A program made the translations under genes and the position numbers. Shown in pieces: positions 1 through 52,600 of a stretch of 64,000 nt of DNA. Below the pieces are notes generated by a model. That model ran no database searches and was not told the DNA's origin. It saw only the letters and a program-made list of their open reading frames with translations. Source of the DNA: Bolinopsis microptera (lineage: Eukaryota; Ctenophora; Tentaculata; Lobata; Bolinopsidae); NCBI RefSeq assembly GCF_026151205.1, contig NC_087082.1:9122901-9186900 (forward strand). Direction: 5' to 3'. The number at the start of each line of letters is the position of its first letter. The first letter of the stretch is position 1.

Positions 1-55
1 ATCATTTCGTTCATATACGCTCATTCCCATTGCAAATTAAATTACTTGTCTTCAG

Positions 56-3000
56 ATGACCCCTGTAAGATTGCCATTTATGAAATGCACGTGATCCCCT
101 TGATAGAAGATCTTCTCTCAAAAGAATATGGCATCACGCTTTCCCAGATACGGGAATTCGTCTCAGAAAAAGTCCCAGGCGTTACATTTTACAACCACAT
201 GATTAAGAATTTTCTTCTAAGACGTTTTGCTGGACGAATATCATTTTGCCCTCCATATAGGAAAAACGAAGCTGAAGTCGTTTTTCCGTCCTCTATTGAC
301 CCTAAACTTATGGTAGCTAAACTGCAAGTTCTTAATGAGTTAAAGTCAGCAGGCAAGTTTCTTCGAGGCAAATTGAAAGAGATGTCCTTTGGGCTAGAGG
401 ACAGCTTCTGTGATGCTAACGATCTTAAGGCATCTGTAAGAAATACTCGGATGCCAGAATCTGTCATGGAATTTTTAGGAGCATTGCTAAATATCAGCAA
501 AGCTGATTTTGTCCGATTCCAGAAACGGGTAGGCGATGAGGAACTGCCAGAATATAACGATGATGATGACGATGTGGAAGACGATAATACAAACAGACGT
601 ATCCCAAAGAAAATCCTTAAAGCCAACTCTTTGTTTCAGATTATGTTTTACATCGTTAACAACGGCAACAAGAAGTGTCCATTTCATGTTATGTTTGCTC
701 ACGCCATATATGAGATCTGTAAAAGTAGAGGTTTGATCACAATTGGCGAACACCTAGGTTTCTGTATCAGTTATCCGACCATGTTAAGAATGCGTGCATT
801 ACTTGGATTCTATGTCATGTGTTTGTGCAGACTAGGGAACGTACCACTGCCAAGTCACTTCAACACACATGATCCAATGATAGTTTCTCTCGATAACTTT
901 GACCATCATGATGCATCATCTTCAACAGGAAAGAATGACACACATGACAGTGTCATGGTTTTATTCCAGAGAATTCCATTTGGCATGGGCCATTTATCCT
1001 TTACATCCAAAGGAAAAGTATCTCATTACACAGATTTTGTGGTACAAGGCCGAAGGTACATATCTAGTTTACCTTGCCAGCAACTCCAACCATTCTACTT
1101 TGGGAATAAAAGTCAACCACTTCCTGAGAGTTTCTCCTCCGAAAAGTTTGTTTACGAGCCTAATGAGAAGAAAGAAGATGCTTTGCAACTTGCCAGGAAT
1201 CTGAACTTACCTGCACAGGCTAGTAGTAGTTTTTACTCTGTTAAAGTTCCGTCCTGGGCTGGATGCGAAAGTATAATCTCAACATCTGATGATATACCTT
1301 TAAGTAAAGTCGGCTTTGGTCCCACAGTTCCCTACCCAATAACAGATATCCAGACTGTCTACACATGTCTCAGAAATTGTGACAACATCGCTTCTCAGTT
1401 GCGTCAAAAAACTCTTCCAGTGGTATGCGACGAAGGAGTTTACCATTTGGTCACTAAAATTTACCTGCAGCAGCCAGAACTGTTCTCGAGGATATTTCCC
1501 ATGCTTGGTGGATTCCACTTGACTAAAACTGCCTTGCACTGTGCTGGAAAATTTTTGAAAGGGTCTGGAGTCGAGGACATATTCATAGAATGTGGAATCT
1601 TTGGTCCAAAGACTGTAGATTCAGTAATGAATGGAAAGCATTACTATCGTTCTTTAGAGGGTCTCACAATTCTAAGCGACTCTATGACGAGAATGAAAAT
1701 GACGGCTTTTTGGAAAGAGAATCCACCGCAAAACTACTCTGATGCTATAGTTAAGCTGGAACGATTTCAGCAAGCTCTTTGTGACAACAATAAGGCACTT
1801 TCTCAATCGGTCATGTCTGATCTCTTAGAATGTAATACTGTCAATAAGTTGAAACAGGATATTGATCGTTTTGAGAAAACCTGTTCGGAAAGCTCGTCAC
1901 AATGCAAGTATTGGTTCAACTTTATGAAAATCATGAACCTCATAAGGAACTTCATACGATCAGAAAAATATGGAGACTTTTTGCTGAATATGAAGACCAT
2001 CCAAGACCTTTTACCTGTGTTTCTTGGTTGTGACAGTCTCAACTATTTGAGATACGGTTCCTTTTACTTGGAGCTTCTTAAAAATGTCAAGCACACTCAT
2101 CCAGAGTTATATGACTCCTTTTTGAAGAAGCATTTTGTAGTAAAAAGAACCTCGGGCTCATTTAACGCAGTGTCGCCAGATCTTGCTCTTGAACAAACAA
2201 TACAACGTAGTTCAAAGAGTTCACACGGAATCATAGGGCAGACAAAGAAACAGGAATACGCTGCGGAATGGGCCCTCATTTACCACGAGGTTCTCTCTAT
2301 AACCAACACCTTTAGGGAGATAACAAACTCGGATAAAGGAGGGAACACGGAGACTGCCAATGCATCTTCCCACCATCATTTAAGTCCTAGAAAGATTCAA
2401 GAGATCAATGCTCGCACTGACAGTATCACAAGTTTTGTAAGTAGTCAAGGAAATCCATTTTGCAAGGAGAATCACGACAAAGTTAAAAACCTTGTGACGC
2501 AAGTTTATGCTGAAGACAGTGTTGCCAAGATGCATTATGATTTCTTTGAGATTGTATCTGAGAAGTATGAGGAGTTCCAAAAATCAGTTTACAAAGAAAA
2601 GACAAGGTTATTGGCAGACAAGATCAGCAAGACAAATTTACTTCCTGTGGATCATGTAACAGCTGCTAAATCAGATGCCACTGAAAAGACTATCAAGAAA
2701 AACGAGCGAGCTTCAAGGCTGGCAATCAAAGTTCTTTCTATTGCAAAAAGTAAAGATGGAGATTTAGCAAGAGTTCTTAAGTATGATATTACAAACTATA
2801 GTACCCTCTTCGACGGTTCTTTGATGGTGAAACCAATCAAAAATAAAATGAGGGAGGAGCTTGAAAAGAAAGCATCCTTCAAAACTGACGATCTTATATG
2901 CAATCCTTCTAACGAAGAGGCTGTTGTGGTCGACTTTATGTCGTTCATCAGGGGACAAAGCTTGGATACAAGAGTTAAAGACCTGAAAGCACCGTCTTTA

Positions 3001-4209
3001 TTTGGAATCCAGGATAACCCTTCAACCTGGACATTCGGGATGATGGTGGCAGAGGCATTTGCCAGAGTTTTCAAGAGGTTTCCCGATGTAGCACTTTTTC
3101 ACATCGTTTTTGACAGCTACATGGAAAATTCTCTTAAAGGCGGTGAAAGAGCTACCAGGATTGCTGCCGCTGGCGGTATAATCCGCCTAGCAAGAATAAG
3201 AAGCGACACTAAAGTTCCCGAACAGATGCCTAAGTTTTGGGCATGCTCTGCAAACAAAGAAAAGTTCCAGAGCTTTGTAACGTCGCATGTTCTTGATTTG
3301 GCTCGTAAGGTCAACAAATCAATCATTTTTAGTGGTACAGTCGTGGAAAATGTCTCTAAACCAGCACTCCATCTTAATGAACTGGGTAATGTACAACAAA
3401 CTGATCAGCTGAACCTCAAATACGAAGAAGCAGACCTCAGGATAATACCACATATTGGATGGGACATAACTATGTTTTCAAGGTCTCGTGTCACAGTGAT
3501 ATCAGAGGACACTGATGTACTGGTGCTGTTGTTACACTACTTTGAAAAATTTCATAGTCTTGGGTTACAGAACTTATTCTTGCAGCTTGGTAAAGGTGAG
3601 AAGCGAAGGATGTTGCCAGTGCACATAATGTTTGAAAGATTCGGAAAAGACTTTTGTCAAGAAATTCTCAGTGCACATCTAGCAACAGGATCTGATCACC
3701 TAAGCAAAGTGGGGTCAAAGAGATGTGCACTGACTGCTGACCCGGAGAAAAGTCTTCGCAGTTTTGGCAAAACAGCAACTTTAGACGAGGAGCAACTAAA
3801 GGTCGCAGAAGAATATCTTGTAAACGTTTTATCAGCTTCAAATGGAGTCAAAACATTTGATGAGCTGAGACTTCAGGTTCACAAGAAAACTGGTTCTGCT
3901 CTTGGTCTTCCTCCAACCTCTTATTCTATTAGGAATGGGCATATAAGACGATGGTGGTACCTTTTGAAAGAAAATTCCAATCTTTTAACACCAGAACATG
4001 AACGCTGTCTCCTTAATGCTCTTGAATATGGCTGGAAAGATCAGGAGGGCGACCTTTATGCCAACAAGCAACTTCACCTCATTCCTGATGAACTTTGCAA
4101 CACTTGCCGATGTAAAACTGGATGCAAAACTAAACATTGTTCTTGTGTTAAAGCGGAGGGGTCAAAATATTCAGACTTTTGCCTTTGCATTAATTGCGAA
4201 AATAAATGA
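56..4209 (+). CDS. Large protein with FEN1/XPG-like PIN nuclease core and C-terminal CXC motif (3' exon, start outside window)
   Basis: A 1,380-codon open frame ends at TGA 4207-4209. It is probably not complete: a pyrimidine-rich 3' splice acceptor (cttgtcttcag) ends at 55 and the frame has no good ATG there, so a first exon should lie to the left. Residue numbers count from base 46. The N-terminal ~950 residues match nothing I recognise, apart from an acidic run near residue 172. From ~955 the sequence reads like a FEN1/XPG-type PIN nuclease: VVVDFMSF (~961), EEADLRI (~1127), SEDTDVLVLL (~1153) and TGSDHLSK (~1214). These are the spaced acidic blocks that bind metal in flap endonucleases. 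The C-terminus (~1351 on) has C-x2-C-x-C-x3-C-x4-C-x-C and further cysteines, like tesmin/TSO1 CXC zinc motifs. I recall similar large proteins as repeated unannotated genes in cnidarians and molluscs. It could be a host nuclease or a transposon-borne gene. Family function is unknown. Confidence 0.7.
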
Positions 4210-4889: not shown

Positions 4890-5292
4890 AGGATACAGCC
4901 TGCTTCATTATAGAATATATTTGGAGAATACTTCATTTCGTGTAATTACAGATTGTAAAAGTTTGCTCAACTTGACGACTATTTTTCGCAAGGAAAATAG
5001 TTATATGCAAAGAAGGCTGGCTGACTTGGCGTCTTTCCGGTTTAAGGTAGTGCATGTCTCCGGGGAGAGCAATGATATTCAGTGGGCGGATTATCTTAGT
5101 CGGAATCCTGTGGAAATAGAGACCACGTCAGTAGCCACGCAGACCAGTGATGATGCAATTGCATCGATCAAATCCATCGTGGTAGATAGAGAACAGGATT
5201 CATTTGACAAAGTTGAGAGTAAGCAGCAGGGATCAGAGAAACAGTACACACGGACGCACATTACACGGGTGCTGAAATCGGAGATTTCCTGA
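4890..5292 (+). pseudogene. Gypsy RNase H C-terminal fragment
   Basis: The translation includes FRVITDCKSLL (an RNase H acidic block) and ADYLSRNP, the usual C-terminal signature of Ty3/Gypsy RNase H. The frame ends at a TGA at 5290-5292. The sequence continues in the next frame from ~5288 (PEQPITLAEIR...) and runs open into the integrase, so a single small indel near 5280-5290 separates RNase H from integrase. The N-terminal half of RNase H and all of RT are absent upstream. The frame has no native ATG, as expected for a pol interior. Confidence 0.85.
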
Positions 5293-6532
5293 GCAGCCCA
5301 TTACGCTGGCAGAAATTCGGAGAGAATATGCTAATGATACAATTTTATCAACAGTAATTAAATGGGTAGAAAGTGGGCAACCTCCAGATAATGTCAGTTA
5401 CCGTAGGGATTCTGCTGAGCTTTGTCACTATAGACAAAATTTTGACATGATGACGGTCAAGAAGGGGATCCTACATCGCAGATGGGTAAATCCCACTAAC
5501 AGACAGGACGACAGAGATCTTATTGTGGTGCCGAGGCCACTTATTGACAGAGTTTTACATTCGTACCACGATGGCAATTGCCACGTGGGTGCGGATCTAG
5601 CACTGGAACACTGCCAGAAGAGCTTTTACTTCTACAAACAGCGCAAAATTTACAAGTTATATTGCGAAGCATGTATCACGTGTGCACAGGGTAAGCAGCC
5701 TCGCAGTTTCAAGAAAGCTCCATTGAAACCCATTGTTTACAGCCACTTCGGGCAGTGTGTTGCCATTGATTACTTAGAGCTGTCTAAGAAGCCTACGAAA
5801 AGGGGCCATACAGCACTGTTAACAATGGTAGATATGTTTTCAAATTATGTGGTGTGCAAACCAGTGAAATCTACAGGCACAGAGGAAGCCATTAAGGTTA
5901 TCATAAATGAATGGATCCTGAAATTTGGAGTCATGTCTACAATCATACACGACTTAGGACCGAGTTTCTCGAGCACTTTGTTCAAGTCGGTCTTAAAAAT
6001 GTTCAACATTAAGGATATACACGGAGTTCCGTGGAAATGTCAGACCAACGGACGAGCTGAGGCCTTCAACAAGAAAATCAATGTTTGTATGAGAACATGT
6101 CTAAATGAGAATCAGTGGCAGGACTATGACTTGTGGATTAACTACATAGTGTTTGTGCTCAACAGCTTGAAATCCACTAGGACCAAATACTCAGCCAATT
6201 TTCTGTTATTTGGGCGTGAAGTCATGAGTGTGAGAAACTTGTACATACAGGATGATGAGAGATTAGAGCAGATCTATTCCGAAATAGATGACGATGACGC
6301 TAGACAACTTCTTGCATACAATTTGTATCGAAACATAGCTGAGGTGACTAGAAAAGCAGCTGCGAACAATGCTGTAAAGGCGAAGTTTATGAAGACGAGC
6401 TACGATAAAGGAGTAAGAGGGCCATTTTTCGAGAGTGGGGAGTGGGGAGTGGTGCATGTTATTGGTTCAAAGACCTGGACACAAGTTTGCTCCCAGATTT
6501 CAGGGACCATACAAGATAGTAGAGAAGCTTAG
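5288..6532 (+). pseudogene. Gypsy integrase (H2C2 zinc finger and DDE core)
   Basis: The open frame runs from ~5288; its first ATG is at 5447. The zinc-binding part is visible as HVGADLALEHC followed by CEACITCAQ (H-C-C pattern). The catalytic core follows: first Asp in AIDYLEL, second in IHDLGPSF and Glu in GRAEAFNKKI, in the right order and at spacing typical of retroviral-type integrases. The frame is lost after ~6430 by a short tandem duplication (separate finding) and ends at 6532. The next module continues in another frame. It catalysed cDNA joining in the intact element. This copy cannot make a full pol protein. Confidence 0.88.
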
Positions 6533-7313
6533 TGATTGGAACTACATTGTCCAGGTGGGACAGGAGAAGAAGGTAACCAGCATCACGAAGATGAAACCTT
6601 ATAAAGGGGGAAAACCACTCACCAAGGTTCCTGGAGCGGCTGTGGGATTTCCCAGCGGCTGTTCTGTGGAAAATGAAGGCAACGTGAGTGAGGTGAGCCT
6701 TCTATCACCTGGAGCGGCTGTGGGATTTCCCAACGGTTGTTCCGGGGTAAGTGAAGGCAACATGAGTGAAGTGAGCCTGGTCACTGATAGTGATTCAGAT
6801 GATTCAGATGATTATCACATCATCACGAGGAGTCGGAAGAAGAAGAGGGATCAAGGAATTCCTTGTCCTTCATCTAAAATCAGTAAAAGTGGAGGAAAAG
6901 CGTCAGCACCAGTGAATCTCACAAGTTCTGGAAATGATGTACCACAAACTGAAGTTGGGAGCGGAGATCCGGCCATTGTGGTGGAAGAGGAGGAACGAGG
7001 ATTGGATGACACGATAGTAAACTCATCGCTCAACGATGTACCGCGTCAGGAAGACGATCCACAATTAAATCTAAGTGCAGATACCACCGAATCTTTTCAC
7101 GATGCACTAGATTCAAGTCAATCTCAAAACATTGACTCTAGTCCGGAAGTAGCGGCTGCATCTGCTGGACCAAGCAGAGAGGGAAATATGCACTTCGGAG
7201 AAATAGATAGTAGAGGACTTACTCTTGCTGAGATAGGTCGTGAGGAAGACGGCAGAAATCCGAGGAGAAAGTACGAACTCAGACCGAGAAGGAATAAACC
7301 GAAGTACGTTTAG
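6435..7313 (+). pseudogene. Gypsy integrase C-terminal GPY/F-like module plus hydrophilic tail
   Basis: The frame opens with GHKFAPRFQGPYKIVEKL, which matches the GPY/F module (PRFxGPYxIxxxL) at integrase C-termini of many Gypsy elements. It continues with a basic and acidic low-complexity tail to TAG at 7311-7313. Residues ~62-115 hold a two-fold internal duplication: GAAVGFPSGCS and GAAVGFPNGCS, each followed by EGN(V/M)SEVSL. The tail resembles neither a chromodomain nor an envelope protein. The module joins the integrase after removal of a 7-bp slippage duplication. Confidence 0.8.
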
Positions 7314-23344: not shown

Positions 23345-23412
23345 GAGAATATGTAGTTTAAGCTTACCTTTCATATAAAGTAAGTCTCATTCAAAAATAT
23401 TGATATTTGAGA
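23345..23412. repeat. Solo remnant of the foldback arm
   Basis: It shares TTAAGCTTACCTTTCATATA-like sequence and the following AAAATATTGATATTTGA with the right arm of the foldback at 20.8-22.8 kb, with several substitutions. This indicates an interspersed family, not a single local palindrome. Confidence 0.7.
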
Positions 23413-23769
23413 TTCTAACTAATATTTGTGTGAGATTGTTTATTGATAAAGTTGAAAATTTACATTGAATATGAATTAGCAGCCCCTCCTTACCCCAGCC
23501 CCTTCCCCATCATTGCACATTCACTCCATTTTACATCTCATCCAACACATTTGACGTTTCAGTATACTTTATTCATTTTCAATTGACTTTATAACTCATT
23601 AACTAGCCTTAAATCTACTGGTGATTCCTGCTAAGCTTAACGTGATCACTGATAAATTTATGTTACTCATCTCACTGCCGCCTAGCTTGTTTCAGGTTTA
23701 CTGGTCTGGTTCGATGGGTCTGACCCTGGCCGCCTCCGCTCACCCCTGTACTCCGCATCCATTATCACC

Positions 23770-25062
23770 ATGAAAACGACCGACAAGAAACTCGACAAGA
23801 AACTCGACAGGAAATCGGACCTCTTTAATGCCACGTCTCGAGGGTGCAAGTCAGCTGGATCCACCCCTATTTCAAGCCCTGTTTTAAGCCGAAAAGTCAC
23901 TAGCAGAATACATAATAGGAACACAGAGCCAGATGCAGATCTAACATCTGATGGAGACTTCCTAGATGTAGAGAGCAACGAACCAGCATCGATCCCAGCC
24001 ACGCTACTCTCTAAGTGTCCCTGCTTCGTAGAGTCTAAGAACCCCGTGACAATCGTATGTGTTAATTGTAAGCAGACCTTCCATTCCAACTGTGTTAACC
24101 TGGCTGGCCTCACAGTAGCGTCTCTAAAGAAGCTCAGCACTTCCTGGAAGTGCCCGGACTGCTTTATCTTTCCTTACACAAGAAGATTGAAGGAGGAGGA
24201 TAAATCCAAAGCCTTAACAGAATTCTTTAGCAACATTGCTAAGATATCCAAATGTAATGAGGACCTCAAAGATAGTACAACAACCATAGAGTTCTTCAAC
24301 GAGCATATCAAACACCTCATACTCAAGGAGGACGGTTTCAAAGAACACTCCAAAAAAACAGAACGATTAGTAACTGGAATTGAAGACATCACTGAAGACA
24401 TAGCTGTTATCAAGGATGTACTTACGAAAGTAAAGGAGAGTGGCTCAGCTCTTGAGACAACCAGTTATTCTCTCAAACAGGAGATTGATGACCTAAAGGA
24501 CTCTCTCAAAAGTATTCCTATTACAGAGCAACCTTCGACTAACAGCAGTACTTTCGATCATGTTGATAACCTGATGACTCAGATCAAAGTGCAATTGGAA
24601 AAGATCAATGATCATGTTTGTCCCTCAACGTCCACACAGAAATTTGATGAAGGTGAACTACCCAACGACGACTCTATCGTTATGACCCCTAACACTACTT
24701 CTCCTCACTTTACTGCATCTGAAATTTCTATAGACCCTGCATGTGACCCTTATATAACTTATCAGGAAGATATAGTGCCTGTTGAGCTTCACAGCAAACT
24801 TATAAAGCTGCTGGAGGACAGTAGTGCAGATTTTTCTTCGGTTGGTAGCAGCAGGGATGTCATCTACTTTGGTGAACATGGATACTGGTATACAGGAGCA
24901 TATCATCAGGCAAAGGAAACTCCAGTAGAGATACAAGATCTTTTGGACTGTGTGCGACCCTCTCTCCCCAATAGGAAGAGCTGGCTGAACTCTTGCCTTG
25001 TAACAAGATATACAGGCAACAGTAGCCATATCCCTCAGCACTGTGACAATGGTACTTATTGA
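23770..25062 (+). pseudogene. LINE ORF1: PHD finger, coiled coil and N-terminal half of AlkB-like domain
   Basis: It starts at ATG 23770 in a good context (caccATGa). Residues ~1-80 are basic and serine-rich. Residues ~83-135 form a PHD-type zinc finger: CPC, then CVNC, then HSNC, then CPDC. Residues ~145-290 are lysine/glutamate-rich with heptad character (coiled coil, probable oligomerisation). Residues ~355-430 begin an AlkB-like fold: VIYFGEHGYWYTG, NSCLVTRYTGNSSHIPQH-C-D, where H424-x-D426 is the iron-binding HxD pair. The frame then shifts: it stops at 25060-25062, while the fold continues in the frame seen from 25043. The PHD might bind histone tails and the oxygenase might act on nucleic acid; both roles are inference from family. 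Confidence 0.85.
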
Positions 25063-25480
25063 CCCTGAATCAATAATAGTCACTGTGTCTCTTGGTGAAG
25101 AACGCACAATAAAGTTCACACATAAGTCGACTGAAAAGTCCTTAAAGCTCAAAGATGGAAGTGTGTACGTGATGTCCAGGTTGTCCCAGGAAATCTGGAA
25201 TCATGGTATTGAACCCCTCGCTAATGAAGAAGATGAAGAGGAATCTGATGAGACAAATTCTGTGAGGTACAGCTTTACCTTTAGGCATATTGCGCCTTAC
25301 TACAAAAATAGCACAGTTTTAATTGGGGACTCAAACACTAAATACATTCAATTTGGTAAAGATGTTGGAACTCTCGGAAAATGGGTTCCTGGTAAGCGAA
25401 TGTGGGCTGCTAAAATTGACGATATGATGAGGAAGGTTTTGAAAAATTTGTCGAAACTGTCCATGAAAAAATCGAACTGA
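25043..25480 (+). pseudogene. LINE ORF1 continued: C-terminal half of AlkB-like domain and start of SGNH esterase
   Basis: After a one-base-type frameshift near 25048-25060 the dioxygenase continues: IDPESIIVTVSLGEERTIKF, LKDGSVYVMS, IWNHGIEP (second iron histidine), then RYSFTFR (the two arginines that bind 2-oxoglutarate in AlkB proteins). With the HxD upstream, all the expected active-site residues are present in order. Next comes STVLIGDSNTKYIQFG, a block-I GDS motif of SGNH hydrolases, the esterase known from CR1 ORF1. The esterase breaks off within ~40 residues at an internal deletion, and the frame reaches a stop at 25480. It is not functional as it stands. Confidence 0.85.
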
Positions 25481-26197
25481 ATTTCAAAGTGGACTCTACT
25501 GCTGGTTTTCAATCAAAACGAAATAGATTGATGAATCCATGGATCACTTCTGCGTTAATTAAATCTGTGTTTACTAAAGGCTTTCACTACAAGCAATGAA
25601 GGCTTCGTGTACCAAAATCAACCCATTAGGTGAGGAAACTTTATATCTTAAGTATAAGGAGTATCGTTCTATCCTAAACAAAGCTATAAAATCTGCGAAA
25701 AAAGCCCACTATGGGAAAAAATTTGAACTTGCTAAAGGAAATATTAAAAAAACCTGGGAATTGATTAACGAACTCAGGGGTAAATCTAAAAAAGATATAA
25801 AAGCATCATTCTTAATTGATGGTAGAATTGTAACTGAACGCCGTGAGATTGCTAACGGATTTAACATCTACTTCTCGTCTATTGCTCGTACTCTTAATTC
25901 AAAAGTTCAATCTTCTGTACCATCTCGTACGGTAACTGATGGCAATTTCAATAAAAGAAAGTTTAAACAATACCTCAAGGGCAGAGAAAGAATAGTGAAC
26001 TCTTTTTTTCTCAGCCCCTGTGACGAGGAAGAGATAAGTAAAATTATTGGTAGCCTTGAAAATGGGAAGGCAAGTGATATCTCTGTTAAAGTCTTAAAAA
26101 AGAGTGTAAATTATCTGTCTGGTCATATCTCTAGATTCTTTAATTGGTTCTTGGACAATGGGGTCTTTCCAAACAAGCTTAAAACGGGCTCTATTAC
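25428..26197 (+). pseudogene. LINE ORF2 fragment: pre-RT linker and RT N-terminus
   Basis: In another frame than the SGNH piece, 25428-25600 encodes a linker with KRNRLMNPWITSALIKSVFT, typical of the stretch between endonuclease and RT in CR1/Jockey-like LINEs. A stop and frameshift near 25597 are followed by 25596-26197, with YRSILNKAIKSAKKAHYGKK, KTWELINELRG and FPNKLKT, the start of RT (fingers). It is cut at 26197 by the inserted element and resumes at 27107 with PIYKKGD. Confidence 0.85.
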
Positions 26198-27099
26198 TAG
26201 GTGATAATCAATAATTATTTTAACACACGGCCATAATTCTGGGAAAACTTGTATTGTTGGAATATCGTGATTTTAAAACGGCATTGAATCAAAAAAAGTG
26301 TTACGAAAAAACGGCGTTATTTTGCTGAAATTTGGGCTCAGCGTCGGACTGTTTTCAAAAGCTCATGATAAATTGTAATAAAATGATGCAATCATGAAAA
26401 TTTCTGGAATCTATGTACAAATAACTTTTCCAAACGATAGCATAAAGTATGATAAGTTTACAAATATCCGTGTATTTGATAAACGCAATAATATAAGTCA
26501 AGTCAGAAACACGCCTACTCGCACACATTTTGAAATATAACTCCAGCTAGCAACGGCGCAAAAAAACCAAAGTTTCAGTGAAATGGTGCCAAGAAGACTG
26601 TGGCACGCGCAGTAGAGCTATCGCACGTGAGAAATGTTTCAGTCAGTCGACCTCGTTATGCGCGCTGTTTCGTTTCCATCAGAAATTTTGACCTTGTACG
26701 CCATTTTGTCGCCATTTTGTCAATTTATACGTAATTTCGTAAATTTCGTCAATACCACGTTTAGCCAAATTCCACATAGAGCTTATAATTTACTTCCAAC
26801 ACGAAATAAACATTGCTAAGGCCATGAAGTTACCTAATGGCTACTTTTAACGGAAAATCAAGTCATTCTGTGACATGTAGCGTCCTTTTGTCACTTAAAT
26901 GGATGACGTTGACTCTAGAACATCGTGAAACTTTCCATCAGTAAAGCTAAAAGTATTTCCATTCTAAAAAACTTTACTTCAAGATAATTGCACGAAAGAT
27001 GAATAAGTGTCAAAAGATCCATTTGATTGAACTTGTCTTCAACTTTTAAGCTGTATTACGTCTCGAAATAAGCGATCGACCGCGCAGGATTACCACCTA
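26198..27099. mobile_element. 902-bp non-autonomous DNA transposon with 7-bp TSD, inserted in the LINE RT
   Basis: It is flanked by CTATTAC at 26191-26197 and 27100-27106. Ends: TAGGTGATAATC left, and right end reverse-complement TAGGTGGTAATC (12-bp TIR, one mismatch). Joining the flanks across one TSD copy restores the RT reading frame (…GSIT-PIYKKGD…). No transposase is seen. A 7-bp TSD does not by itself identify a superfamily; I leave it unassigned. Confidence 0.9.
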
Positions 27100-27106
27100 C
27101 TATTAC

Positions 27107-27204
27107 ACCAATTTATAAAAAAGGAGACTCACGATGCCTTGATAACTATCGACCTGTTTCTACATTACCGATATTTGGAAAAATACTTGAAAAAATAATT
27201 TATA
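27107..27204 (+). pseudogene. LINE RT middle fragment
   Basis: It encodes PIYKKGDSRCLDNYRPVS and ILEKIIY, the RT block around NYRPVS found in CR1/Jockey-like LINEs. It lies between the two DNA-element insertions and is in register with 27786 onward after one TA is removed. Confidence 0.88.
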
Positions 27205-27783
27205 CCTTACAAGACATTTTTGTGGCGGACCAATGTGCGACGACCGAAATTTTGGCGGTCCGAAAATATGGCGAAATTGAACAAAAACCGTCACATTTCG
27301 GACGTCACAGAAAATAAGGGTATTTTTCATCATTTTGTTTTCTGACACAAAGGAAATTCAAAATTTTCTAAAAATCGGTAAAATCATGTTGAAACAAAAT
27401 GAAACTTATAAATCGATTTCTTCATCTTTCTCTAAGGGGTCCGGCTCGAATCTTTCAGTTTCACTTATTGAGTTTGGTATTAAATTGTTTATCTTGACTT
27501 AGTCTATAAGACGTTTATGTTAGCACATAAATGTAATTTATTGTAAATTTAAAACGTATAACTTGACATTAAATTCATCATGGAATATTGTGTTTATTTG
27601 TCCCACCATCATATCACTAACTTTTCAAGAACAAAATGAATCGATGAAGCCACAATTATTGGAATAAGCTAAAAATAATGCGACGGATTCTATTACGACG
27701 ACCGAAATTTTGGCGGTCCGAAAATATGGCGAAATTTCGGGAAAACCGTCGCATTTCGTACGTTATAAAAATGTCTTGTAAGG
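27205..27783. mobile_element. 579-bp MITE-like element with TA target duplication
   Basis: The ends CCTTACAAGACATTTTT and their inverted copy flank the element, with TA at 27203-27204 and 27784-27785. Just inside each end a ~70-bp block (GACCGAAATTTTGGCGGTCC...) appears in the same orientation at ~27240 and ~27702, so subterminal direct repeats exist besides the TIRs. No ORF of note. The TA duplication is compatible with Tc1/mariner-like mobilisation, but the family is unproven. Confidence 0.9.
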
Positions 27784-27785
27784 TA

Positions 27786-29206
27786 ATAGGTTATATAATT
27801 ACCTCAGTGCTATGAACGTGATTTATGATCGACAATTTGGTTTTAGAAAACAACACTCAACATCTCATGCCGTAAACTATTCTGTCAATAAAATACTTAA
27901 TGAGATTGAACAGAAAAATCATGTAATTGGAATATTTATTGATCTAAGTAAAGCATTTGACACAATTGAGCACGATAAACTCCTGCATAAACTTGAACAC
28001 TATGGAGTAAGAGGTATTGCACTAAAAACTCTTGCTAGCTATCTAACAAACCGTAGCCAAGTAACTTCTTTTCAAACTGAAAAATCGGACAAGTGTTCAG
28101 TTGAGTATGGTGTACCTCAGGGGTCAGTGTTAGGACCTCTACTATTTCTGATTTATATAAATGATATTGTGAGCTCCTCAAGCTTGGCTGAATTCGTCCT
28201 GTTTGCTGATGATACAAATATTTTTGTGATAGGTAGTTCAGCACAGGAAGCTTTTGATAAAGCTAATCATGTAATGAAACAGGTCAGTAACTATATGGAG
28301 TCTAACAAGTTACATATAAATGCAGGGAAAAGTTGTTATATGCATTTTCAGCCAGGTTTGTCAAGAGCAACACAGACCTGTGCCAGAACACGGCCCTTTA
28401 ACAGGAATCTAACGATTTTAATAGATGGCAAAAAGCTAGAAAAAGTTCAATGTACAAAGTTTCTTGGGGTGATAATAGACGAACAGCTAAGCTGGGAACC
28501 ACATCTTAATCATTTATCTTTAAAGCTGAACTCCAGTATTGTATCGATTAAGAGAATTTGCAAATTCATTCCCAAATCTGAATATTTGAAACTATACAAT
28601 GCTCTTTTTATGTCACATCTTAGCTATTGTATAAGTTGATGGGGTGGGATCCCTAAACATAAGCTGAATAAAATCTTTGCAATTCAAAAACGATGTATAA
28701 GACTGCTATTTGGTAACATTCCCAATTTTGATCATAAAGAATACTATTTAACCTGTGCACGTTCAAGAACTTATAACGAACATATGGCTAGCAAGAACTA
28801 CTGTCTTGAACACACTAAACCGCTATTCACTGAGCAGAAAATTATGAACCTGGAGAATCTGCACATGTACCATACATTTATGGAACTATTCAAAATTCTT
28901 AAATTTGATGTCACCCAGTCGATTAAAGATCTTTTCAAGCTCTGTCCTAGAAATGAAAAACTTCGTCTGATTGTCCCATTACTGAGGTTAGATATCTCCC
29001 AACAGAACTTTTTGTACACCTCTACGAAAATTTGGAATGACCTCAGCCCCTATGTATTCGAAATTTGTGATGCTAATGAAGATGGGATAATAATCCCGGG
29101 TTCTTCCAAGAATTCAGACTTGTCAGCCTTGTCAGGTATTATTAAATCTAACCTTAAAAAGCACTTGCTATCCCTCCAAAATCGAGATGACCCTAATACA
29201 TGGTAA
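27786..29206 (+). pseudogene. LINE reverse transcriptase palm/thumb and C-terminus
   Basis: The frame continues from ~27786 and shows RQFGFRKQHSTSHA, IFIDLSKAFDTIEHD (first catalytic Asp), YGVPQGSVLGPLLF, FVLFADDTNIFV (the ADD active site) and KFLGVIIDEQLSW. A single TGA at 28637-28639 interrupts the LSYCIS-WGGIP region, after which the same frame continues to TAA at ~29206 with the C-terminal KIWNDLS motif. All RT catalytic aspartates are intact. One nonsense codon plus the upstream insertions make it inactive. There is no RNase H domain after RT, in line with CR1-like elements. Confidence 0.9.
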
Positions 29207-29576
29207 CTACTTTATATTATATCTCAAATTCTAAATCCGGTACGGCTCTGCACACATGATATCTCTCTCTGCCATGAAACATGGCTAACCTTTTAAACTA
29301 TAATTTAAAACCTAAACCTAAACTAAAACTCAACTGGGCTCTCCTATGTCACCAAACTAAACCAATAAGTAATTTTATATTATCATATTTTTCTATATTT
29401 GTATAACATATATTTGTATTGACGTAGTGGATGGTTGAGGGGGTTTCAAGCACAGGTCACTCTCAAATCCTAAAGATAAGCAGTGGCCTTCGGCACTTGA
29501 AACCTCTTCAAACCTCCCCTGATTTATTTATTATTGATATTGTTTGATTGTGCCGTAAAAATAAATATTTGTTTTA

Positions 29577-30263
29577 TTAAATATTTGTCTTATTATAACA
29601 TTTAAATGTTTTGTATATGGAATGTTCTGAAGAGATGTTATCTTTCAGCCTGTTAATATCAGACTCTATGGTATCCAGAGACTTCTTAGGCTGAATTTTC
29701 TTCTTTCCATTCCCTCTGCCACGTTTGTATCGAGCAATCTGTCCACTAAAATAATTCATAACCCGATCTTGGGAGATGTTACCCGTTCCTTTCTTCTTGT
29801 CATTAAGACCAAGAGGGAATGCTGGCCCAAGCTTCTCTATCCAGTAATCCTCCAGGAGAAGTAAATCATTTTTGACATCGGTGGACATGTCAGAATCAAC
29901 ATAATCTACAATCTGTATGGAAGCATCTGAGAAGACGTGACCAGGAATATTAAAATGTTCATATAAAAATGTGGATGATTTGGCTTTGACACAATTTCTG
30001 TGGCCATTGACTCTTTTATGAAGTGGTTGAGTTGTTTCTCCAACATATTGTTTTTTACAGGTAGAGCAGGTAATAACATAAATAACATTATTAGTTTTAC
30101 AATTAAATATAAAATTTGTATGTCCAAAGATAAAATCATTATTAAAAGTACTGCTCCTAAATGTATTTACAGGATTAAAACTGTTGCAAGTGAGACAAAC
30201 TCTACCATTGCAACATCTAAAAGTGCTAGAAAAGACATTACTAGGGGTTACCCATTTATTCAA
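29577..30263 (-). pseudogene. GIY-YIG endonuclease ORF of a Penelope-like retroelement
   Basis: A 228-codon open frame. Residues ~62-95 carry the GIY-YIG signature in the Penelope-like form NVIYVITCSTCKKQYVGETT, then LHKRVNGHR, followed later by a catalytic-type acidic region and LEDYWIEKLGP. The N-terminal part has a cysteine knuckle (CCNGRVCLTC) commonly upstream of GIY-YIG in these elements. In Penelope-like elements this domain follows RT. I do not find an RT upstream on the same strand (30.27-31 kb), so this is a fragment. The C-terminus is lysine-rich. It directly abuts the 3' end of the CR1-like LINE, which is on the opposite strand. Confidence 0.78.
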
Positions 30264-31152
30264 GGATTTTGAGAAAAATTTACCATTACGTTTAAGTCAA
30301 GAAGGTAACATCATCCCTTTCGGCGTTTCCGCCTAGACCCAACGACTCAAGATAGGCCAAGGACAACGGGTCGGACATCAACCTATTGTCATGGGGCTGC
30401 CATGATTGGGCGGGCGTTAGATGTCATGAACCTAAATAGTTCTCCCACCGACGCAGTGTAGCCTGGCGAGATTCTTCGCGACCATAAAAATCTCTTAGAA
30501 CCGGATCTTGCACTGCCGCTGTTTCTCGTACCGTAGCATGGCGGACAGCTCACGCCAGAAAATGAAATAAACAGGTAAATACAGGATAAATCAGGAGATG
30601 TATATACAACAACAAGACTTCAAGGAGGGCGCCCAAGAAAACAAAGATCAACCAAATCTCGGAACCAATGGCCGGGAGAGATATAAATGTAATTATAGAG
30701 CAATATCAAGAAAAGCTATCAATTATGTAATGGTAATGTTTGCACTAGATTGGATATCTTTACCTCCCATCTTCACAAAATATTCAAAATTCTAATTGAT
30801 AGAGGATATAGCCGTGATAGACTGATTAAAGGCATTAAACGTTGTCTGAGGAAATATGATAACGTTTTCAGGAAGTTCGGTATTCTAGATGACCATAACA
30901 TTATTAAAGAACTCCCCTGATATCTTTTGATTTATTGAAACACGGGTACTAACTCTGCTAAACTGAACAAATTCTGAAACTTAGGTGAATAAGTGTACAA
31001 CGTGCTAAACCGAAGTTCAGACTGACCAGTGAAAATGGGCGAGCGTACCAAGTGTCATTTTAATTAGAAGTTTTAGTCAGTGATTTATTATTGAAGCTTG
31101 TAATTACAATAACTAATGCTCCTATAAATACTTTAATTAATTGTTTGTTCCG
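30264..31152. other. Mixed remnant DNA, GC-richer block at 30.3-30.56 kb
   Basis: The ~250 bp at 30305-30560 are clearly GC-richer than their surroundings and have no coding frame. At 30777-30920 a plus-strand frame encodes a basic helix-like stretch (RGYSRDRLIKGIKRCLRK) ending in a stop; this may be a retroelement fragment, but I cannot assign it. Confidence 0.4.
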
Positions 31153-46620: not shown

Positions 46621-49600
46621 TTATTCCTATACTTCTGTTATTTTATCTGTTGCACGATGTTCATTAGGTTTCAAACATTATACGTCTCTAGCATATAATA
46701 TATATTACGTTTCTTCATATAATGTAAAAGCATGCATCTTTTCCTTAAAAAGATTGATGAAGGAGCGTTATTGGGACACGTCAAGATGCGACGATCTACG
46801 GTTGCCGGACTGATGAACATTCAAATTTGGAAACCATCCAACTTTCTAGCGCCTTCCTGTATGATGGCAATGTCACGTGACGAGCTGGCCTCGCCATCGT
46901 ACCACGTAATTACTGTGCCACGGTACATGTCAGATCTATAATGTGGAGATTGTACACGTGATCCAGATACTGCAGAGGGTGATCTACTACAGAGAGCTGT
47001 TGTTGTGATTAGTACGTGTTCTAGATTGTTAGGAAAACTGTGCCATGTTCCACTCTATTTGAAAATGTAATCGTCATATTTGATTGAAACACGTACAAAC
47101 CTGTCAAACATCTGTTGATGAAACTGATTGTTATCAACCGAAATTATTAATAACAAAATTGATTGTATGAACAAAAAGCAGAAATTAATATGACTAAATT
47201 ACAATACTCGGGTTAACAATGTAATGTATACAAAAGTAAAGCACTTTATTTGTAGATGTTTAACCCTGTCACACGTGTGCGCGCCCCTTTTGTTTCCTGG
47301 TTCTTAACTCACTAAACAATACCACTGATGAACTCACTCCTTTTAATCGATTGGTAAACTGATATATTCAATCACCTTGACCTGGATAGAAACCTGGGTA
47401 GCCGAATTGGCGAATTATATCATATTGATTCTGGAAACGTTGCCAAGTTATCTCCAGTACCAACCTCAGTACCAACCATAATACCAGGTCATCATGTAAA
47501 TGTGTCACCACGTGTTACACCACGTGTTACACCACGTGTTACACCACGTGTTACACCACGTGTTACACCACGTGTTACACCACGTGTTACACGAGTTCAT
47601 ATAAAACTCCTACTACCAATTCTAGTGATCTCTCCACTGCTTAGGAAGTTTGAAGAAGAATATCAAATATAAGCGATGATTTAAGGCAAGAACTTAGATC
47701 ACTAATTACTGAATTTGGGCGAATTTGAACGTTTTTTTTTTTTTTTTTTTTTTTAAAGAGAGGCTGGGCCTGGTTGGCCCACGAGAGGATAGCATATGGA
47801 TGCTTTGCCTACCTCTGGGGTATGGCAGTCCTGTGGGAGGATGCCAGCGGAATCAAGATGTGTAATCACGGATGATGGTAAGTGTTGTGGGGTGTGTTAT
47901 AGATAAACGCTTAATTAGTGGTTGAGTGTGGAAGAGAGGGGCGAAACAAGACGGCGTTAAAGTAGTCGCTATGTTACACCTGTCTGGTCCAACTCCTCCG
48001 GCACCACTAAGCGTTTAGTGTGGTTTGTAAAGTTGACAATGGTGGAGATGTGTTGGTTGTCGAATATGTCATTGACAGAGAGGTAGTAGTCCCGGAAATA
48101 TTGACCTCTTATTTGGGCAATAGCCGGGCACTGTCCGAGAAAGTGTGAGACAGTCTCCTCTCCGTCGCCGCATTTTGGACAAGCACTTGTGTCTGATTTG
48201 TGGATGGTGTGTAGGTGTTTGTTGAGGCCACAATGTCCCGTGATGAGGTGCACTGCAGTTCTGTAATTTTGTCTGTTGTTGCTGAGTGTAGTGTTGAGAT
48301 TTTTGATGATGTTGATGTTTTTATGTCCAAGTGTCAGTTTAGTGTGTCTGGGACCATTAGTAATCCATGATTCTTGATTAAGTTTTGTGACTTTGTCGTT
48401 GATCAGGCGTTTGATGTAAGATTGTGGAATTGGGCAATTCAAAGTGGATTCACTGGTTGTGCCATTTTTGGCCAGCTCGTCTGCTTTTTCATTACCCCAC
48501 AATCCGATGTGTGCTGCTATCCATCTGATCTCTAAGGTGTTAGTGGATCCGAGTGTATTGAGGGTGTCGTAGCAGTCTCTAGTGGTTCTACTCCTCGTTG
48601 AAGGTGAGGATATAGCTTGAATAGAGGAGAGACTGTCTGACCATATGATGATATGTGTGTTTGTGTAAGTTGATAGATATTTACAAGCTTCGATGATGGC
48701 AGTGAGTTCAGTTTGATAAACGGTGCAATAATCAGGAAGCTTGAATGATCTTTCATCTAGTGTAGTGTTGTTGTTGTCTGTGGTGATAATATAACCAGCC
48801 CCGCTACCTGAGTCTGTGCGTGACCCGTCTGTGTAGCAGGTGATGGTTTCACTGGGGATGTTGTCGATGGTGTTTTGGAGTGAGCCTCTATATTCAATGT
48901 TGTCAGCTCCAGGAGTGGTGACCGTGAAGCGTCGTTCAAGCATCATGGTTGGTATAGATAGGTCTCTCTCTGCTTTGGGTGGTATGTTGAGGTCTACCAT
49001 GAATTGTTTGTTGATAGTGGTGTGAGTTGTGATGGTACCTTTTCTGGGGGCGATAGTTTCGAGGGTTAGGCTTCCATATGCTTGAAGCCTGGCTGTGCCC
49101 TTTGCTGCTTCACCTCTCAGGAAAAGTATGATATCTGGAGTGTTAGTGAGGTGGTTCAGTGCGATGAAGGGAGTACTAGGCATGGCACCAGACATCATTC
49201 TCAATGCCAATGCCTGAACTCGTTTGAACTTCCTCGCGTTGGTGTCTGTTTGGGTTGCCCTAATCCATATACTACAGCAGTATGATAGAATAGGTCTGAT
49301 GACAGCGGTGTACATCCATTTGCATGTTTTAGGGCTCATACCCCAAGTGGGGCCGACAGCTCTTCTACATTGCATAAGGGATGCCGTAGCTTTTTTGGTG
49401 GTATTGGTGATATGTTCATTGAAATTGAGCTTGCTGTCGAGGGTCACTCCTAGGAATTTGGCAGATTTGGATAGACCTATAGTGGTGTTACCCACCACCA
49501 CAGGTCTAAGTGTCCATTTCTTATTCCAGGTAAACATGACTATTTGTGTTTTGAGTGCGCTTATGGATAGATCTTTGGTTTGGCACCATTTTTCTATTGT

Positions 49601-52600
49601 GTTGATGGTTTTGCGTGTTCTGTTCCAGATGATGTCTAAATCATTCCCCTCCGCTAGAGAAAGCAGATCATCTGCAAAAGCTTGCAGATAACCTGGTATG
49701 TCTCTTGCGGTGTAGGCCAGGAGATCATCGACTACCAGGTTCCAAAGGAAAGGGGAAAGGATGCCACCTTGGGGGCACCCTCTCCGGATCCGAACCCTTT
49801 TCGACTTATCCTTATGATTTAATGTGATGAATCTGTTAGTTACCATGTTGATGATCCATTGTGCTGTGGCCGGGTCCACTTTCGTGGTCTTGATAGCGTC
49901 AGAAATAGCCTTGAAAGAGACATTATCAAAAGCTCCCTCTATATCTAGAAAGACTCCTAAGACATATCCCTTCTTAGCTATCCTGCGCTCGATGGTGTGA
50001 GTAACTTTATGAAGGGCTGCTTCGGTTGAACATCCCTTTTTAAAGCCAAATTGTCGTTTGTTGATGTCTTTAGCGATATTAAGGTCGTGTTGCATATGCC
50101 ACAGTATCACCTTCTCCTGTAGTTTTAACATCACAGGAGAAAGGGTGATAGTGCGAAATGATTTTGGTTGGTTGTAGTCAGTTTTTCCAGGCTTTGGGAG
50201 AAAGATTCCAAGGGATTCTTTCCACAAAGTTGGAATGTGTTGGGTTTCATGATTTTTTGTCATAATGGTTCTGGTGATGTCTTTGATGTGTGTCCAAGCT
50301 TTCTGTATGATGATAGGTTTGAGGGTGTCGGGTCCAGCAGCTTTTAACGGATCAAAGGATTTAAGAGCCTCCTCGATTCTGTCTGGGCTGTAGATGGTAT
50401 TGAGTAAGGTGGTGGTGATTGGTAGAGGTCCAGGTGGAGGCACTGGCGGGTCAGTGACACTATCCTTGAAGTGGGTTTGTGTCATGACCTCCAGTGTCTC
50501 CTCTGCATTTTTGGTGATGTCTCCGTTTGGTTTGTAAACGGCTTCTAGTGTGTGCTTGTTGTCGTTGCAGGATTTCAGAATCTTGTTCATCCTTCCGGAT
50601 TCCTTAACAGACTCTGTTTCCTGACAAAAAGTTCTCCAGGCATTACGCTGGGAGTTGGATATAAGTCTGTTGTATTGTTTGTTGCTCTCTCTAAGAGCGA
50701 GCCACAGGGCATCAGTTTTCTTTTTTCGGGCTGTAATCAGTTTTTGTCTTATTCCCCTCTGTGCTTCCTCTACTTCTCGAGTTAGCCAGGGGGGTTTGCG
50801 GACGGAACTTGAGATGTAAGTAATGGGGCATGCCTCCTCGAAGGCTTCCTTAAGTGCAGTATTGATGATGTCTATATTGTGATCAATTTCGGTCGTAGTG
50901 TTGATTTGTGTGTTGTTAAGGTTGGGGTTATTCGATAGGATCTCATCAAATCTGTCCCAGTCAGTGTTTTTGACTAGTCGGATCTGTTTGGGTTCCTTCT
51001 TTGGCCCTGTAGTTATGTCGAACATAATATAGCGATGGTCAGAGTTGGAGTAGAGGTCACTAACATGCCAATTGCTAATGAGGTCTCCTCCCAACTGGTT
51101 TGTTATTGTAAGATCGATAATTGAATTGTGGCCTCGAGAGTTGAGGAAGGTTGGGGATGATCCTTTGTTGGCACATGACAGCCCTAGGGAGGAGAGAAAG
51201 TCAAGTAGCTCCTCTCCCCTCGTATTGCATGTCTTGTTCCCCCAAAGGGTGTGATGGGAATTCGTGTCCGACCCTATAATGAGCGGGATGTTGTTATCAT
51301 TGGCATATTTTGCTAGAGGTGATGTTTCTTGTGGCGGTACCGGTCCGTTTATATCCATGTATGAAGCTGCCAGAATGAGTTCTGTCGAGCTGAGTTGGAT
51401 TTTAACGGCCACTTGATCGGGTGTTGTGAATTGTGTAAGTTCCCAACATTTAGCTGTCAGGTTTTTGTGCAGTACAATTGCGGCACGGGGTCTTTTATCC
51501 CCGATTTTGTAGTAGAAGTTGGACAGATCTTTATTTATAGGTGGTATGATATTTTTGTTATTCGAGTACGGTTCAGTAGCAAGAATGACTGGATTTTTCC
51601 TGCCATGTATGTTGGCTAGGAGGGTTTTCCATGCATTAAACTTGCGTTTGAGGTTAATCTGAGTAATAGAATAAGAATCCAAGCAATTCTTACCATTTTT
51701 GTGAGTAGTCTTTTGACACAGTCTGCCCCTCTGTGTCTTATTGTGTCGTTTTTTGTTTTTGTTTTTGTTGTTGTTAGTGTTGTTGTTGTTGTTGTTTTGT
51801 TGAGTGTTGATGTTTGTGTTGCTATGGGTGGTGTTATTAGGGGGGATATTGTTGGTCTGGGGAACAGTAGTTGAAGCGACTGATACTCCTCCATCATGCA
51901 AGGTCCTAGGACCTGTTACGACGGAAGGTGCGGTTGCGGGGGGCCTCCCTGAGGCGCACGGCAGCGGTCAGCGTGCACAGGAGATGACCTGTCTTCATGA
52001 GGTATTCTTCACCCTGAGGTGAGACATCAACCCATAAACGCATCCGCCGTCGCGCCGCCGCAGTGCCACCTTCAGCCGCCTCCACCTTAACTGTTTCCCA
52101 AGCGTGCGATACATATCGGATCGAGTCCAACGGCAAGCCGTAGTGGACGTTCCGAGATATAAGCCCGCGAACCAAAGTTACTGGGTCCAACCCGTCCGCA
52201 GCGTGTTCCAATCCAGAGAGCTGGAATGGAACAGGAAATTGGTATCGGTTCCACACATCAGTCTCAGTCACGTTCCACCCCTCTCTACGAAGGGTTTCTG
52301 CGATCGTGATGGCCGATGGCTTATCCTCCACCTCTATCCTTGCCCCGTCGATGGTTGGTTGCAGTAGAGTGATTTTGAGTGGTTGTGAGACCACGAACAG
52401 GAGACGTGTGATGTGATCACATGCGTCACTGAGTGCCTCCGCCTTGGTTACGATCAGGGTGAGTAATGGATCACCCTTCCTGAAAACCTCGTCGGGGTCT
52501 GTCAGTTTCACAGCTTCTGTTTCGCAGTCTGAGGTGTCTGTTTCCTTTTGTCTTTCGGATTTGGACTTCTGCTTCCTCCTCCTCTTCTCAGCCCCGCTTT

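Follow-up and report, generated by a model that had tools for sequence, protein, structure and literature searches.

The DNA analysed here is a window of 64,000 nucleotides on contig C11 of the 264.65-Mb genome of the ctenophore Bolinopsis microptera. On its forward strand lies a damaged long interspersed nuclear element (LINE) whose first open reading frame (ORF1) encodes a PHD zinc finger, a coiled coil, an AlkB-type dioxygenase dependent on Fe(II) and 2-oxoglutarate (2OG), and the start of an SGNH esterase. Intact relatives carry the same AlkB domain as a regular, selectively maintained part of ORF1. The features of the window copy are given below, where P0003 is an ORF1 relative of 714 amino acids and L025 a full-length copy.

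23399..29607, + strand: entire LINE copy, 5'-truncated, internally deleted and with two nested insertions (four collinear pieces in blastn against L025, 96.5-99.0% identity)
23770..25426, + strand: ORF1 remnant, first ATG at 23770 (23809-25426 aligns to P0003 residues 7-541; tblastn 82% and 88% identity)
24016..24162, + strand: PHD zinc finger, CPC/CVNC/HSNC/CPDC (Pfam PHD 7.5e-4, below cut-off; DIDO1 PHD E 0.003; family profile to BPTF PHD 8e-4)
24190..24615, + strand: coiled-coil region, limits approximate (long helices 130-271 in the P0003 structure model, carried over by alignment)
24745..25288, + strand: AlkB-type 2OG-Fe(II) dioxygenase domain (Fe ligands His 25039, Asp 25045 and His 25202; 2OG arginines 25265 and 25283)
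25052, + strand: frameshift within AlkB, position approximate (tblastn pieces stop at 25050 and restart at 25052 in a different frame)
25314..25426, + strand: N-terminal piece of the SGNH esterase, GDSN at 25325-25336 (P0003 alignment; family profile matches the zebrafish LINE esterase 4c1b at 4.4e-5)
25423..25426, + strand: internal-deletion junction, where L025 position 3700 abuts 5357 (blastn)
25428..26197, + strand: fragment of the second frame (ORF2), between endonuclease and reverse transcriptase (98% to L025 5357-6132)
26199..27098, + strand: nested insertion with short inverted-repeat ends AGGTGATAATC / GATTACCACCT, one mismatch (missing from L025)
27100..27204, + strand: ORF2 fragment, start of the reverse transcriptase (99% to L025 6126-6230)
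27204..27784, + strand: second nested insertion with perfect 18-base inverted-repeat ends, ACCTTACAAGACATTTTT and its reverse complement
27784..29206, + strand: ORF2 fragment, reverse transcriptase and C-terminal part, single stop at 28637 (PF00078 6.5e-32 at 27782-28636; 97.5% to L025)
29207..29607, + strand: 3' untranslated region terminating in AAATATTTGTTTTATT-like repeats (sequence; comparison with L025 and other copies)

The open frames at 23686-25062 and 25004-25480 belong to a single ORF1 interrupted by a frameshift near 25052, and the AlkB domain is split over them, with the HxD motif (25039-25047) in the first and the distal His (25202-25204) and both Arg (25265-25267 and 25283-25285) in the second. 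About 1.66 kb, comprising the remainder of the SGNH domain and the start of ORF2, is missing at 25423-25426; likeness to ORF1 relatives stops at 25426, and the SGNH of the window ends before its Asn and Asp-His. An initial annotation had proposed, from the letters alone, a PHD finger followed by a coiled coil, an AlkB pattern with all key residues in order, a GDSN esterase block behind it, and a LINE reverse transcriptase downstream. All five were recovered in place: the Cys/His pattern of the PHD matched solved PHD fingers at E values of 0.003-0.01 (with 19.9 bits for Pfam PHD and 20.6 bits for PHD_4, both under cut-off), the helices of the P0003 model transferred to the coiled coil, the AlkB ligands and the GDSN block were located by alignment, and the reverse transcriptase profile matched downstream. 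A profile check set beforehand gave 51 bits (2.7e-13) for PF13532 (2OG-FeII_Oxy_2, AlkB) with the second frame of the window alone, against a cut-off of 31.2; L025 scored 69 bits.

The window holds the decayed remains of one copy of a two-ORF LINE with recent activity. With P0003 as the query against its own genome, at least 68 matching rows were obtained (several copies, the window's included, being split over two or more rows), nine of which cover residues 2-714 and are free of stops. Fourteen copies of the best-matching group were retrieved for detailed study, and ORF1 was open across 636-750 codons in 13 of them. Nine of the 14 have an open ORF1 (PHD-coiled coil-AlkB-SGNH) and then an open ORF2 of 1147 codons with endonuclease and reverse transcriptase; in two of these nine the match to P0003 begins only after its first 17 (L035) or 62 (L037) residues. 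The full element is roughly 7.2 kb long, and its copies have 3' tail repeats in common. Within the nine, L026 and L028-L032 form a set of six with pairwise identities of 99.1-99.8%, and L025 and L037 are 99.7% identical across 5.77 kb and 97.2% identical across the whole aligned ORFs, the latter figure being lower because the L037 frame begins in unrelated sequence. For the ORF2 of L025, we found RVT_1 at 2.1e-38, PF03372 (endonuclease) at 7e-4, under cut-off, and no RNase H match at E <= 0.01 in the Pfam scan, and its best solved relative was human L1 ORF2p (1.6e-17). A check of seven copies for target-site duplications gave brief candidate matches (6-9 bases) in three and none in four. The ORF2 with endonuclease and reverse transcriptase, the common 3' ends and the 5' truncation identify the family as a LINE.

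Three more divergent elements, L039, L040 and L041, have an ORF1 that is 43%, 33%, and 31% identical to P0003, with AlkB scores of 76, 59, and 51 bits, and an ORF2 in which endonuclease (PF03372) and reverse transcriptase are both above cut-off (PF14529 also in L040). Their PHD and SGNH domains are visible through alignment and ligands, Pfam giving only a weak PHD in L039. The ORF1 stop and the ORF2 start overlap as ATGA in L025 and L041, and the ORF2 ATG follows within 6 bases in L039 and L040; this arrangement resembles the stop-restart coupling of SART1. The ORF2 of L025, L039, L040, L041 and L046 (described below) opens with a Cys/His-rich, zinc-finger-like stretch before the endonuclease, for which Pfam gave weak C1_1 or RING-type matches in L039-L041 and none in L025.

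To collect homologous proteins, the two frames were joined across the frameshift (X at the joint) and residues 328-563 were scored, yielding 76 homologues at E <= 1e-3 among 613 candidates, the top one 88% identical. Mnemiopsis leidyi is the sole organism named among them (3/76), and most are nameless. Because recruitment relied on AlkB-SGNH similarity, both domains are expected in this set; invariance of the ligands is not. PF13532 was annotated beforehand on 74 of the 76 and matched all 25 homologues that we scanned (E <= 0.01). The Fe ligands H412 and D414 are identical in 74/74 covering rows, and H467 and both 2OG arginines in 76/76; all five are among the 15 invariant columns in 144 well-filled AlkB columns. 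The AlkB and SGNH catalytic residues tested were also intact in all 23 copies checked in the own genome (the 20 best matches plus L039, L040 and L041), including L018, which has nine stops. The domain set of the window therefore lies far beyond chance, being found in 76 homologues and many genomic copies.

Selection was measured as the ratio of nonsynonymous to synonymous substitution rates (dN/dS) with bootstrap intervals in 10 of the 14 copies, omitting L034, L036, L037 and L038. The ratio was 0.147 (0.065-0.275) for AlkB, or 0.163 with 13 copies, 0.070 (0.027-0.136) for SGNH, 0.283 (0.162-0.509) for the coiled coil and linker, and 0.430 for the PHD, with a wide interval (0.142-1.390). The value for AlkB is similar to that of ORF2 (0.164, 0.113-0.236, in 8 of 9 copies). 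AlkB is thus under purifying selection within ORF1.

Compared with solved structures, the family profile matched ALKBH2 at 9.6e-25, ALKBH3 at 3.1e-17, ALKBH8 at 3.3e-12 and E. coli AlkB at 2.1e-6, so that by profile the LINE AlkB appears nearest to ALKBH2/ALKBH3 among solved structures. Fold searching likewise recovered an AlkB fold resembling ALKBH2/3, in rows covering mainly residues 310-501; ALKBH1, ALKBH4, ALKBH7, ALKBH8 and FTO were not among the 50 fold matches listed. The window pieces alone found no AlkB in the PDB.

AlkB is locked to the esterase as a closely joined unit with fixed spacing: the distance from RxSxTFR to GDSN is exactly 20 residues in all 74 proteins having both, a GDSN-type block not being found in P0053, which ends early, and P0078, which has a diverged esterase. 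The SGNH Ser is present in 74/76 homologues (one gap; P0078 differs), the oxyanion residues Gly558 and Asn560 in 74/76 (two gaps), Asp660 in 72/76 (three gaps; P0078 differs) and His663 in 73/76 (two gaps; the fragment P0073 differs). The Pfam GDSL profile PF13472 recognized 7 of the 25 scanned homologues (E <= 0.01), and the Pfam scan did not find it in L025, L039, L040 or L041. For the PHD, the same scan of homologues gave PHD_4 in 13/25 and PHD in 9/25, and scores were below cut-off in the window, L025 and L039, with none in L040 and L041; all eight zinc ligands of the C4HC3 pattern are conserved in every one of the 20-21 covering copies out of the 23. The PHD pattern occurs in 35/76 homologues, while 41/76 are without it (some being fragments, and P0050 and P0064 having a different N-terminus) yet keep AlkB. 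A PNTxSP or PSTxSP motif, resembling a proline-directed phosphorylation site, stands ahead of AlkB in 49/76 homologues, e.g., P0003, and also in the PHD-less P0050 and P0064.

A genome search with PF13532, in which 150 of 587 candidates were scored, gave at least 151 matches, every listed row being above cut-off, and seven of these were retrieved (L042-L048). One is an ALKBH2-like gene (L042) and two are ALKBH3-like genes (L043, L044) of the same genome. Three belong to other LINE types (L045:776-5286, L046:676-5499 and L047:822-5501), in which ORF1 combines AlkB with a divergent SGNH-like domain (20-27 bits in Pfam, cut-off 32.9), the Ser block being changed to SSSMF, HDSI or SSSIF; in each, a frame with endonuclease and reverse transcriptase follows, running off the stretch in L046 and L047. 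The seventh is a Helitron, L048:2883-8501 joined with L051:3-2999 (G000:C10 about 16874382-16882898), with one giant frame encoding SGNH (27 bits, under the PF13472 cut-off as in L045-L047), AlkB (77 bits), DUF6570, Helitron_like_N and PIF1. Its SGNH-AlkB order is reversed relative to the LINEs, and the two domains are far apart, with a Pro/Ala-rich stretch between them. Five further AlkB matches sit in frames of 2225-3366 codons.

By ORF2 the LINEs fall into groups A-D (40-52% mutual identity), E and G (48%), and F, with 23-29% identity across groups; AlkB with SGNH is therefore present in three far-separate LINE groups and one Helitron. A tree of 27 rows split 21 transposon AlkBs from six cellular and phage rows with support of 100/99. 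When two long rows were added, a Rhizobium plasmid AlkB and an IMG/VR AlkB, the cellular rows fell among the transposon AlkBs with open forks; three of the four IMG/VR loci are in neither tree, as their AlkB was not found by pattern. Constraining the 20 LINE rows to group without the Helitron was compatible with the data (p-AU 0.46). Recent capture of the host ALKBH2 or ALKBH3 is unsupported, since in the 27-row tree L042-L044 group with human ALKBH2/3 and stand apart from all 21 AlkBs of transposons; the 29-row tree does not separate the two sets. A close viral, phage or plasmid source was rejected: P0003 as the sole query gave no IMG/VR match, the four IMG/VR matches otherwise obtained being AlkB-only at 28-31% identity, and there were three phage records at 25-35% and 60 plasmid records, the ten listed at 28-31%. 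The initial annotation had held that this element gained a demethylase; AlkB indeed proved a regular part of ORF1, but its gain is not special to the LINE of the window, because several element types share it. A broader and rather tentative reading is that a transposon AlkB lineage, distinct from host ALKBH2/3, forms with SGNH a portable two-enzyme module, that has passed between, and been retained by, a minimum of three strongly diverged LINE groups plus a Helitron, that has expanded to at least 151 AlkB matches, and that would strip methyls from single-stranded intermediates of mobile DNA.

As to what the domain does in the LINE, it could well be an active ALKBH2/3-type Fe(II)/2OG N-demethylase that clears 1-methyladenine (m1A) and 3-methylcytosine (m3C) from the element's single-stranded RNA and cDNA. 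Enzymes of the ALKBH2/3 type take off m1A and m3C, pairing-face lesions that stop polymerases. The ORF1 protein would act as a multidomain ribonucleoprotein component made up of the PHD, the coiled coil and the joined AlkB-esterase unit; multimerization through the coiled coil would keep that unit on the RNA, and attachment of the particle to chromatin may come from the PHD finger. Blocking methyls would be stripped chiefly off the LINE RNA template and the first cDNA strand, and target-primed reverse transcription could then be completed. Since the RNA of a LINE has to be copied completely in a single run, such a protein would be of benefit. We infer the enzymatic activity, the substrate and the benefit to reverse transcription. 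The available part of PMC12140624 reports that modifications including m1A lowered capture by the R2-type reverse transcriptase of OTTR and that AlkB cleared m1A and m3C, with modest gains for intact tRNA.

Several points weigh against this proposal. The presence of m1A and m3C on ctenophore LINE RNA is an assumed premise. For the DNA-flipping aromatic finger of ALKBH2, the profile alignment shows nothing clearly equivalent, which leaves any substrate inference from ALKBH2 loose. The own-genome ligand check drew on the 20 best-scoring matches and is biased toward intact copies, and the dN/dS values come from a small sample of 10 similar copies with non-independent pairs. AlkB and SGNH also occur in a Helitron, an element without reverse transcriptase; relief of a reverse transcription block is therefore not the whole reason for their presence, and a role on single-stranded DNA or RNA generally would fit better.

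This last point is shared with a different, distinctly less probable explanation, in which the targets of AlkB are not regulated marks but chemically alkylated bases, which it would repair in the RNA and cDNA of the LINE or in nicked target DNA. Single-stranded intermediates are common to LINEs and the Helitron, the domain is of the ALKBH2/3 type, and plant-virus AlkBs, as told in the available part of PMC9289625, offer a precedent; however, the genome already has ALKBH2-like and ALKBH3-like genes, which would already cover generic repair if a local supply within the particle is of no importance. We consider it improbable that the domain erases N6-methyladenosine (m6A) so that LINE RNA evades host epitranscriptomic surveillance, as proposed for an orchid Gypsy element. 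The Gypsy-encoded ALKBH5-like AlkB does demethylate m6A in vitro (PMC9289625, available part), but by profile the LINE AlkB appears nearest to ALKBH2/3 rather than ALKBH5, which lowers m6A as a first choice, and human L1 retrotransposition is helped by m6A and suppressed by ALKBH5 according to the available part of PMC7873242.

An action on DNA marks, such as N6-methyladenine, or on a chromatin protein at the target site would be suggested by the PHD in the same protein, which could guide it, and by the PHD pattern in 35 of the homologues, but the retention of AlkB in the 41 without that pattern (fragments among them) and the PHD dN/dS of 0.43 with its wide interval make it very unlikely. About equally unlikely is a catalytically idle AlkB serving only as a nucleic acid-binding fold. 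Esterase-type ORF1s are described in the available part of PMC3905857 as lacking other structured RNA-binding domains, so that something must bind the RNA, yet all Fe and 2OG ligands are unchanged in proteins down to 24% identity. Finally, the broken state of the window copy might suggest a chance or one-off insertion of the AlkB segment into a dead LINE, a check that the initial annotation had itself named. The genomic rows, nine of them stop-free over P0003 residues 2-714, and the homologues, those of Mnemiopsis leidyi included, rule this out and leave it a negligible probability: other copies hold AlkB between PHD and SGNH, under selection and followed by an ORF2 with endonuclease and reverse transcriptase.

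We rate as new here the AlkB, an added enzyme in a LINE ORF1 of an otherwise known class. Esterase-type ORF1s are reported in CR1, RTEX and Penelope-like elements (PMC3905857, available part), and the zebrafish ORF1p of ZfL2-1 (PDB 4c1b) shares with the present family a coiled coil followed by an SGNH with the same catalytic residues; the difference is that in the present family an AlkB, at constant spacing, separates the coiled coil from the esterase. The survey of 448 Jockey-superfamily elements in PMC4120745, as far as its text was available, lists PHD, RRM, CCHC, Tnp22, coiled coil, esterase and zinc finger/leucine zipper among ORF1 domains, and the main text so available mentions no oxygenase. 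The PHD-containing ORF1s of its CR1 and L2 lineages resemble ours in the PHD but are without AlkB, and in Table 1 of that source the PHD occurs alone or with RRM, Tnp22, CCHC or coiled coil, with no subgroup combining PHD and esterase. The orchid Ty3/Gypsy AlkB (PMC9289625, available part) is likewise retrotransposon-encoded with intact cofactor residues, but it belongs to a long terminal repeat (LTR) element, occupies a separate ORF, is ALKBH5-like and is called recent, whereas the LINE AlkB is fused into ORF1 and ALKBH2/3-like. Plant RNA virus AlkBs, as told in the same source, are similarly fused to a protein of an RNA-based replicator, and fold matches were obtained in BFVD; their hosts are RNA viruses without reverse transcription. 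Human ALKBH2 and ALKBH3 share sequence profile, fold, ligand set and HxDxE with the transposon AlkBs, from which they are apart in the 27-row tree (100/99) and not separated in the 29-row tree. No description of a LINE AlkB turned up in the literature searched, which does not prove its absence from print.

The arrangement places a nucleic acid demethylase domain inside a LINE ORF1 protein. If the domain is active, base methylation of RNA or cDNA would restrict LINE copying so strongly that elements bring along a remedy of their own. In the laboratory, AlkB is already supplied alongside an R2-type reverse transcriptase to improve its reading of modified RNA (PMC12140624, available part), and evolution may have paired the two likewise. 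The fixed AlkB-esterase coupling also gives a new handle on the role of the esterase in ORF1.

Elsewhere in the window, a frame for a GIY-YIG nuclease (29583-30296, - strand) lies directly beyond the AlkB LINE on the opposite strand. A second LINE of another kind occupies 47975-53231 (- strand), with a 1331-codon frame encoding endonuclease, reverse transcriptase and RNase H that is preceded by a 440-codon frame without a Pfam match. Pieces of an LTR-type integrase are found at 5276-7310 (+ strand; Integrase_H2C2, with rve, p58 C-terminal and SH3_Tf2-1 below cut-off), and a 1402-codon open frame at 1-4206 (+ strand), with DUF6589 below cut-off, runs off the window start.
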